In this document: positions 474-1,534 of the stretch, one piece after another
Numbering within the stretch: position 1 is the stretch's first letter
Layout of the letters: each line of letters starts with the position of its first letter
Source of the DNA: an uncultured Clostridia bacterium
GTDB taxonomy: Bacteria > Bacillota > Clostridia > Christensenellales > Aristaeellaceae
NCBI GenBank assembly: GCA_947596085.1
Contig: CANQEW010000007.1
Span: forward strand, 1 to 64,000
Direction: 5' to 3'
DNA: 64,000 bases
The notes under the pieces: model-generated
Database searches by the model: none
Seen by the model: only the letters and a program-made list of their open reading frames with translations
What the model was told of the DNA's origin: nothing
Program-made: the position numbers and the translations under genes

Positions 474-1534
474 ATGGAAAACAATCTCCAGTCTCCCGTA
501 ATATTATCGGGGGGGGCACATCTAAGCGAATAGGGTATGTAGACGCATTGAAAGGCTTTGCGATAATGTGTGTAGTTATTGGTCATATCGCTCTTGGATA
601 TACCGGTGCTGAATACTTCCCTGGTAGATGGAATTTTTGGTATGCCATTGAAAATATAATGTACAGTTTTCACATGCCGCTTTTTTTTTCAATTAGCGGA
701 TTCGTATATTATAAAGCGTATTTCACATCCGACGGAAAACCGAAACGCCGCAAGTTGTATATTCAGATGCTAAATCTTGCTGGGATATATGTGATTTTCG
801 CTATAGGATTCACACTTCTAAAAATGCCGTTTAACGCATTTACAAACGAAAAAGCGAGTTTTGAAGATATTATCTGGATGTGGATGAACCCAATTGGAGT
901 TTACTGGTATCTCTATGTTTTAATAGAGATGTATCTTGTATTCTCAATACCTTATCTTGTAAGGAGCAACTCTATTATCATTCTTGCAGGTTGTTTTGGG
1001 CTGACAGTTATCAGCTACTACATTTCAGTTCCATTCCGTCTTCCAGATTTATGCTATTTTCTTGTATTCTTTGCAGCAGGAATTGTCTATGCACGCGAGG
1101 CAAAACTTTTTTCGCTCTTTCCTGCCTCAGTAGCAGGATTGATAATATCAGTTATATTCAGCACGATATTTTGGAATATCAACAGTACTCTCAACTGTAC
1201 AAAATATGTAAATTTTGTAATCGCTTTTGGATTGATTCTTGTGATATGGTACGCTTTTGAACACATCGATTTTCTGGGAAATAACAGAGTGCTGCAATAT
1301 TTAGGTGCACGGTCGCTTGAAATTTATGTCACTCACAGCATCGTGGTGACAGTCGGAAGGACGATTTTAAATAGATTGAGTGTGAACGATCAGTATATTT
1401 GCCTGATTGTCAACATGATTTTGGGTATAGAGCTGCCATTGATTTTTTCTTTCGCAATCAGAAAGCTCAAACTTTTTGATTTATTTTTCCGACCAGTAAC
1501 GGTAATATCAAAAAAACTAAGGATGGAAAAATAA
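474..1534 (+). CDS. Acyltransferase family 3 membrane protein, frame broken at a poly-G tract
   Basis: The product is a multi-pass membrane O-acyltransferase (acyltransferase 3, OafA/WecH type) that would acetylate a surface sugar. The hallmark start is VDALKGFAIM followed by VVIGHI, then SFHMPLFFSISGF and about ten hydrophobic segments. The track begins it at TTG 548, inside the first helix, with no ribosome site. A better start is ATG 474, preceded by AGAGGG seven bases upstream, giving MENNLQSPVILSGG. That frame runs into eight consecutive G (509-516) and then stops. One more G (nine) or two fewer (six) joins it to the acyltransferase frame. So the copy here is off, or the run length is a sequencing error. 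The neighbouring rfbB end suggests the target is a cell-surface polysaccharide. Confidence 0.75.
509..516 (+). repeat. Homopolymeric G8 tract, probable slippage site
   Basis: Eight consecutive G residues lie 12 codons after ATG 474. The frame entering the tract differs from the acyltransferase frame leaving it by one base. Homopolymeric tracts at the 5' end of surface-modification genes are classic contingency loci, where replication slippage switches translation on and off. A base-calling error in the run is the main alternative. Confidence 0.6.

Follow-up and report, generated by a model that had tools for sequence, protein, structure and literature searches.

The window, 64,000 nucleotides from the start of contig CANQEW010000007.1 of an uncultured Clostridia bacterium, opens with the 3' end of a nucleotide-sugar dehydratase gene (positions 1-162, truncated by the contig start), behind which lie a candidate ribosome-binding site, an ATG, a run of eight G and the reading frame of a membrane acyltransferase, all on the forward strand. 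The dehydratase is probably rmlB (dTDP-glucose 4,6-dehydratase), a name taken from reading the sequence; its Pfam match to GDP_Man_Dehyd (E = 4e-4, 20.3 bits) lies under the curated cut-off. Reading the letters directly, we located the purine-rich candidate ribosome-binding site AGGAAAGAGGG at 456-466, 7 nt ahead of the ATG at 474. The start codon and an extension, MENNLQSPVILS, make up a leader (474-508) ahead of the acyltransferase domain, and the G8 run, the slippery tract, occupies 509-516, beginning 35 bases past the A of the ATG. Translated as found, ATG 474 yields the 19-residue product MENNLQSPVILSGGAHLSE, closed by a TAG at 531-533.

Beyond the run, the acyltransferase frame (518-1534) extends over 338 codons with zero internal stops and matches the Acyl_transf_3 profile PF01757 at 4.7e-28 and 98.6 bits (cut-off 31), with residues 6-303 aligned to profile positions 2-313 of 326. 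This intact frame is out of frame with ATG 474, and because the domain begins at residue 6 of the 338, translation as found yields no part of it. The first ATG, GTG or TTG within the open frame is TTG 548, already inside the domain. An earlier note on this DNA had described ATG 474 as leading through eight G and out of frame with the acyltransferase, which direct reading and translation bear out, and had calculated that nine or six G would restore the frame, which is arithmetically correct. Taking about 8 or more G as the length at which slippage sets in, the run is long enough to slip, and changes in its length would alter the frame in which the intact PF01757 gene beyond it is expressed. Separately, a T9 run at 681-689 lies in frame inside the acyltransferase (HMPLFFSISGF) and is a possible second slippage site; it is the sole T run of at least 8 in the approximately 300 kb of this genome that were read, and a T8 is present in the gene of the homologue L146 introduced below.

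Predicted function and composition of the acyltransferase gene

The GH at residues 22-23 (P0001) contains the conserved His of the first membrane segment, which is invariant in four homologues and whose role in Acyl_transf_3 proteins we take to be the generally accepted one. O-acylation of a surface glycan by this gene fits both the PF01757 match and the polysaccharide-locus neighbours described below, the substrate being predicted. NCBIfam matches of the acyltransferase to NolL and MdoC were far under the cut-offs of these families, and a search of solved structures returned no usable match. We also considered a phage-borne acyltransferase and rejected it, as a search of viral contigs found no relative.

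The GC content of the gene is 37%, compared with 60% for the remainder of the window, which suggests horizontal acquisition. More broadly, positions 1-2000 form an AT-rich stretch at the contig start (GC about 37-45% against 60% elsewhere in the window) that was probably acquired. A gene that is AT-rich and out of frame, and that lies on the margin of a stretch which looks foreign, could also be a decaying one, in which the frameshift was a one-off inactivation toward a pseudogene. We nevertheless judge decay to be very improbable, given that the 338 codons contain no further stop or frameshift, that the sole lesion falls exactly in a run common to homologues, and that many of the runs found across the genome are in frame.

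Homologues carry runs of different length at the same position

A search of genome_contigs (84,980 species genomes), which detects only close relatives, found a single relative, L146, in the MAG "uncultured Clostridia bacterium isolate Lapin-015" (G308; from rabbit, by its name), which belongs to another family than the window genome and lies outside the 308 genomes of the window's family. L146 shares 59-60% identity with the window gene; its run, in the corresponding position, is G9 and leaves the gene in frame, reading MTEKVRIAASNPEKLAGGGTSCRIKYIDSLKGFAI. A second homologue in the same MAG, L163 (36-37% identity), has the leader MSNNISPPELLA and, in that position too, a G10 that puts its gene out of frame. 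The three homologous loci carry 8, 9 and 10 G at one position, and L146 and L163 each have their own leader before the run. This comes close to the comparison of lengths that the earlier note had asked for, here made among species and paralogues rather than strains. The genes surrounding both homologues are those of polysaccharide loci, with UDP-galactopyranose mutase (GLF), EpsG, GT2 and pyruvyl transferase genes beside L146 and sugar transferase and nucleotidyl transferase genes beside L163, while the window locus adjoins the end of the probable rmlB.

Orthologues are not widespread in the window's family: among its 308 genomes only one other has a homologue, L148, the closest in that family at 34% identity. 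L148 lacks a run, and its coding sequence opens with MNRIKYIDSIKGF, preceded by a ribosome site of its own; within the family of G308, homologues were found only in G308 itself. The run is kept, with variable length, in the two closest homologues and is absent from the third. Since the run-free L148 begins at the domain, the leader plus run looks, from these sequences, like an extension added to an ordinary acyltransferase gene.

At the run, the open frame of all three run-bearing homologues would encode Gly-Gly-Gly-Thr-Ser, as expected if the tract were a fixed element, whether as a Gly linker or as a site of ribosome or polymerase slippage that gives some full-length protein without any change in the DNA; G runs can in principle promote transcript slippage. 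We assign such a fixed element only the slightest probability. GGG makes up 16% of the Gly codons in the window and a linker required at the protein level would not preserve pure G in diverged genes, the lengths differ between the homologues, and runs of this kind are also found in promoters and leaders, for which an explanation at the protein level is inapplicable.

G runs of nine are in excess across the genome

The earlier note had seen a single locus; about 43 runs of this kind (G8-G10) occur in the genome. Exact counts of G runs are bimodal, with 242 G6, 25 G7, 6 G8, 35 G9 and 2 G10, and a geometric extrapolation of the drop from G6 to G7 predicts about 2.6 G8 and 0.27 G9 in place of the 6 and 35 seen. 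Among 150 genomes of the family, this one has the highest count of exact G9 (0-14 in the other 149) and an ordinary count of G7. A second peak among A/T runs was sought over about 300 kb of the same genome and none was found, the counts falling off smoothly, which indicates that the G9 peak is not a general homopolymer artefact. We rejected an excess judged from the window only: dinucleotide shuffling of the window alone expects 9.0 matches to G7 or longer, and the 2 overlapping matches seen, both from 509-516, are fewer than this. The significance of the run accordingly derives from the genome-wide counts, which exceed expectation, and not from those in the window. Pfam matches place many of the genes at the runs in surface or regulatory classes.

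The lengths are oddly uniform, with 35 of the 43 runs at exactly 9, which could reflect an equilibrium of mutation, selection, or an assembly that forms a consensus over mixed lengths. This uniformity counts against free slippage, which might spread the lengths more. The genome has intact mutS and mutL genes; loss of mismatch repair was consequently rejected as the cause, and the repair system may lower slippage rates.

The predominance of G9, together with the 60% identical homologue that is G9 and in frame, also bears on whether the true run at 509-516 is G9, the gene simply being on and the missing G an error of sequencing or assembly. Homopolymer lengths are error-prone and a MAG provides a consensus only. 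Even so, a length error accounts neither for the existence of the run nor for its conserved position in diverged homologues, the out-of-frame G10 homologue or the genome-wide excess, and we therefore hold it to be unlikely as an account in which nothing switches. That the called state is wrong by one base is quite possible, but such an error would do no more than convert "off as found" to "on as found", and the gene would remain a switch that happened to be on when read. The base-calling error that the earlier note had offered as its alternative hence cannot explain the run away and may at most alter the state that was called, whereas the contingency-locus switch that it had favored is strongly supported, though unproven, by the homologue runs and the genome-wide excess of G runs.

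Genes and intergenic regions at the other runs

Two further Acyl_transf_3 genes carry a run (C13:39582 and C18:24909), both out of frame as found, and at C13:39582 the two halves of the domain sit in different frames. Runs are present inside or at the end of glycosyltransferase genes (C13:42589, 47989 and 49492, WecG at C18:28543 and PMT_2 on C39) and in a hexapeptide transferase gene (C18:31932). An FkbH identity for a gene on C53, seen by eye, was unsupported by Pfam and was dropped. Outside glycan synthesis, an HsdS gene of a type I system (C88:6885, L061) has an in-frame G9 between its two Methylase_S domains, such that a change in length would leave a specificity subunit with one domain. 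A GHKL sensor kinase gene adjoining a response regulator (C45:19087, L053) has a G8 in its ATPase domain and is out of frame as found; AraC-type regulators on C19 and C33 also contain runs, and in a solute-binding protein on C26 the run lies within the signal peptide. That in-frame and out-of-frame runs coexist in one genome fits stochastic switching better than decay.

Four small RiPP-like leader genes on C36 (19113, 19829, 21865 and 21975; L050), recognized by eye and with no Pfam match, each carry a G9. In two of them the run encodes the glycines adjoining the presumed leader cleavage site (VAGGG), and slippage would alter the downstream peptide. Intergenic runs lie between -35 and -10 boxes on C25 and C3 and in the leaders of large secreted proteins, some of which have Big_2 domains, as well as of other genes. 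One of the latter, the housekeeping gene smpB (C1:49609, L032), has a G9 directly in its leader, soon after a TATAAT box.

A proposed poly-G switch and its relation to known systems

Given these observations, we think it very likely that the locus is a phase-variable contingency locus, in which poly-G separates the start codon and leader from an otherwise intact Acyl_transf_3 gene. Slipped-strand mispairing at replication, the standard explanation for such runs, would add single Gs to the tract or remove them. In the in-frame state a membrane acyltransferase would be made whose probable role is to O-acylate a sugar in a polysaccharide of the cell surface, perhaps a rhamnose-containing glycan because the adjoining gene is probably rmlB, and in the out-of-frame state, the G8 of this assembly, only the 19-residue peptide would be produced. 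Many of the approximately 43 G8-G10 runs are located in genes for surface glycans, restriction specificity, regulation or peptide leaders, or lie upstream of genes for surface proteins, and the cells of one population would accordingly form a mosaic that differs in surface type. We infer that slippage is reversible in living cells, that the product performs O-acylation, and that the benefit lies in evading recognition by phage or the immune system.

In every respect that can be judged from sequence, the locus appears to work in the way that G-run contingency loci do in Campylobacter and Neisseria. Neisseria G-run loci are situated both in coding sequences and between -35 and -10 promoter boxes. 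The runs described here occupy both kinds of position as well. Their host group is unrelated to that of the Neisseria phasomes (PMC5084427, PMC5953494), and no orthology between the genes was apparent. Each Campylobacter jejuni genome contains 12-29 tracts of at least seven G or C, most of them in surface-glycan genes that are turned on and off by frame (PMC4965091, PMC8437040). Frame-controlled on/off switching and surface-glycan genes are common to its poly-G and poly-C loci and to ours; in contrast, the present genome is a high-GC one from the Clostridia, contains about 43 runs of 8 or more, has mismatch repair genes and keeps the length tightly at 9.

The gut commensal Akkermansia muciniphila also carries G runs in its capsule genes, and slippage has been proposed for long repeats in its acyltransferase gene amuc_2098 (PMC3048395, PMC13343947). 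This member of the Verrucomicrobiota differs in that its repeat is at the gene end and 17 of its genes have tracts longer than 8 bp, while here the run is at the gene start and the set is larger. In Streptococcus pneumoniae, single-base homopolymer changes attributed to slippage inactivate the capsule O-acetyltransferase gene wciG (serotypes 33H/35D; PMC11934437). Those changes fall at homopolymeric spots within the gene, unlike the dedicated G8-G10 run in a 5' extension that is common to homologues here. The Akkermansia repeats and the pneumococcal frameshifts mean that slippage in a capsule acyltransferase gene has been suggested before. Near the start of Listeria inlA, a poly(A) run frequently undergoes frameshift and leaves a short peptide (PMC2831843), which resembles our locus in the closeness of a homopolymer to the start and in the short product, but involves poly-A in place of poly-G and lacks the genome-wide set peaking at one length. 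Finally, phase variation in gut anaerobes is known from the invertible promoters of Clostridioides difficile and Bacteroides, whose mechanism is instead site-specific inversion; in the passages located by term in the 2025 review covering them (PMC11868660), Clostridia are tied only to inversions.

The literature searched, which included few subscription papers, contained no report of poly-G switching in Clostridia or of a poly-G phasome in uncultured Clostridia. The mechanism of a contingency locus is already known; the host group and the scale are new. More tentatively, we raise the doubtful reading that this gut bacterium, although proficient in mismatch repair, has a poly-G phasome which spans its genome and exceeds the Campylobacter one in size, that a leader plus G run was added before acyltransferase genes, homologues with runs being present in separate families, and that runs of this genome even encode the double-glycine part of RiPP-like leaders, where slippage would change which core peptide is made.

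G-run promoters and assembly breaks in other Clostridia

We searched 391 Clostridia genomes for a promoter signature consisting of TTGACA, up to 8 nt, G8 or longer, up to 10 nt and TATAAT, with the reversed pattern as a control. The signature occurred at 14 places in 6 genomes and the reversed control at 0. Ten G-run promoters were read, most of them ahead of signal-peptide genes, several with lipoprotein boxes. Those at L182-L190 (in G740, G619, G509, G646 and G640) have spacers of 14-21 nt, and many of their downstream genes encode lipoproteins; G740 alone has 8 G-run promoters. Slippage switches are textbook knowledge for Gram-negative mucosal pathogens, and phase variation in gut Clostridia is described mainly via DNA inversion. 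The approximately 43 G runs in one uncultured commensal and the G-run promoters in these 6 genomes suggest a second, overlooked route of surface variation in this class.

In the MAG that carries L146 and L163 there are 26 runs of 8 to 14 G, half of which (13 of 26: L153, L154, L160-L162, L166-L170 and L172-L174) lie within 80 bp of a contig end, a zone that accounts for 1.4-2.6% of the genome (p between about 1e-14 and 1e-18, according to the number of contigs assumed). Contigs that end at runs are the behavior expected of a short-read assembler where reads disagree in length, and to this extent point indirectly to mixed lengths, although poor sequencing of G runs or repeated promoters could be responsible in part. 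Contig breaks at G runs could serve to mark length-variable runs in MAG collections, in which assemblies break at such runs and annotation will label such switch genes as broken. Matches to G8 or longer in G070, a MAG of the same genus, were mostly GGG/CCC assembly junk and were set aside; another same-genus MAG, G031, carries 27 runs, with a mode of G10.
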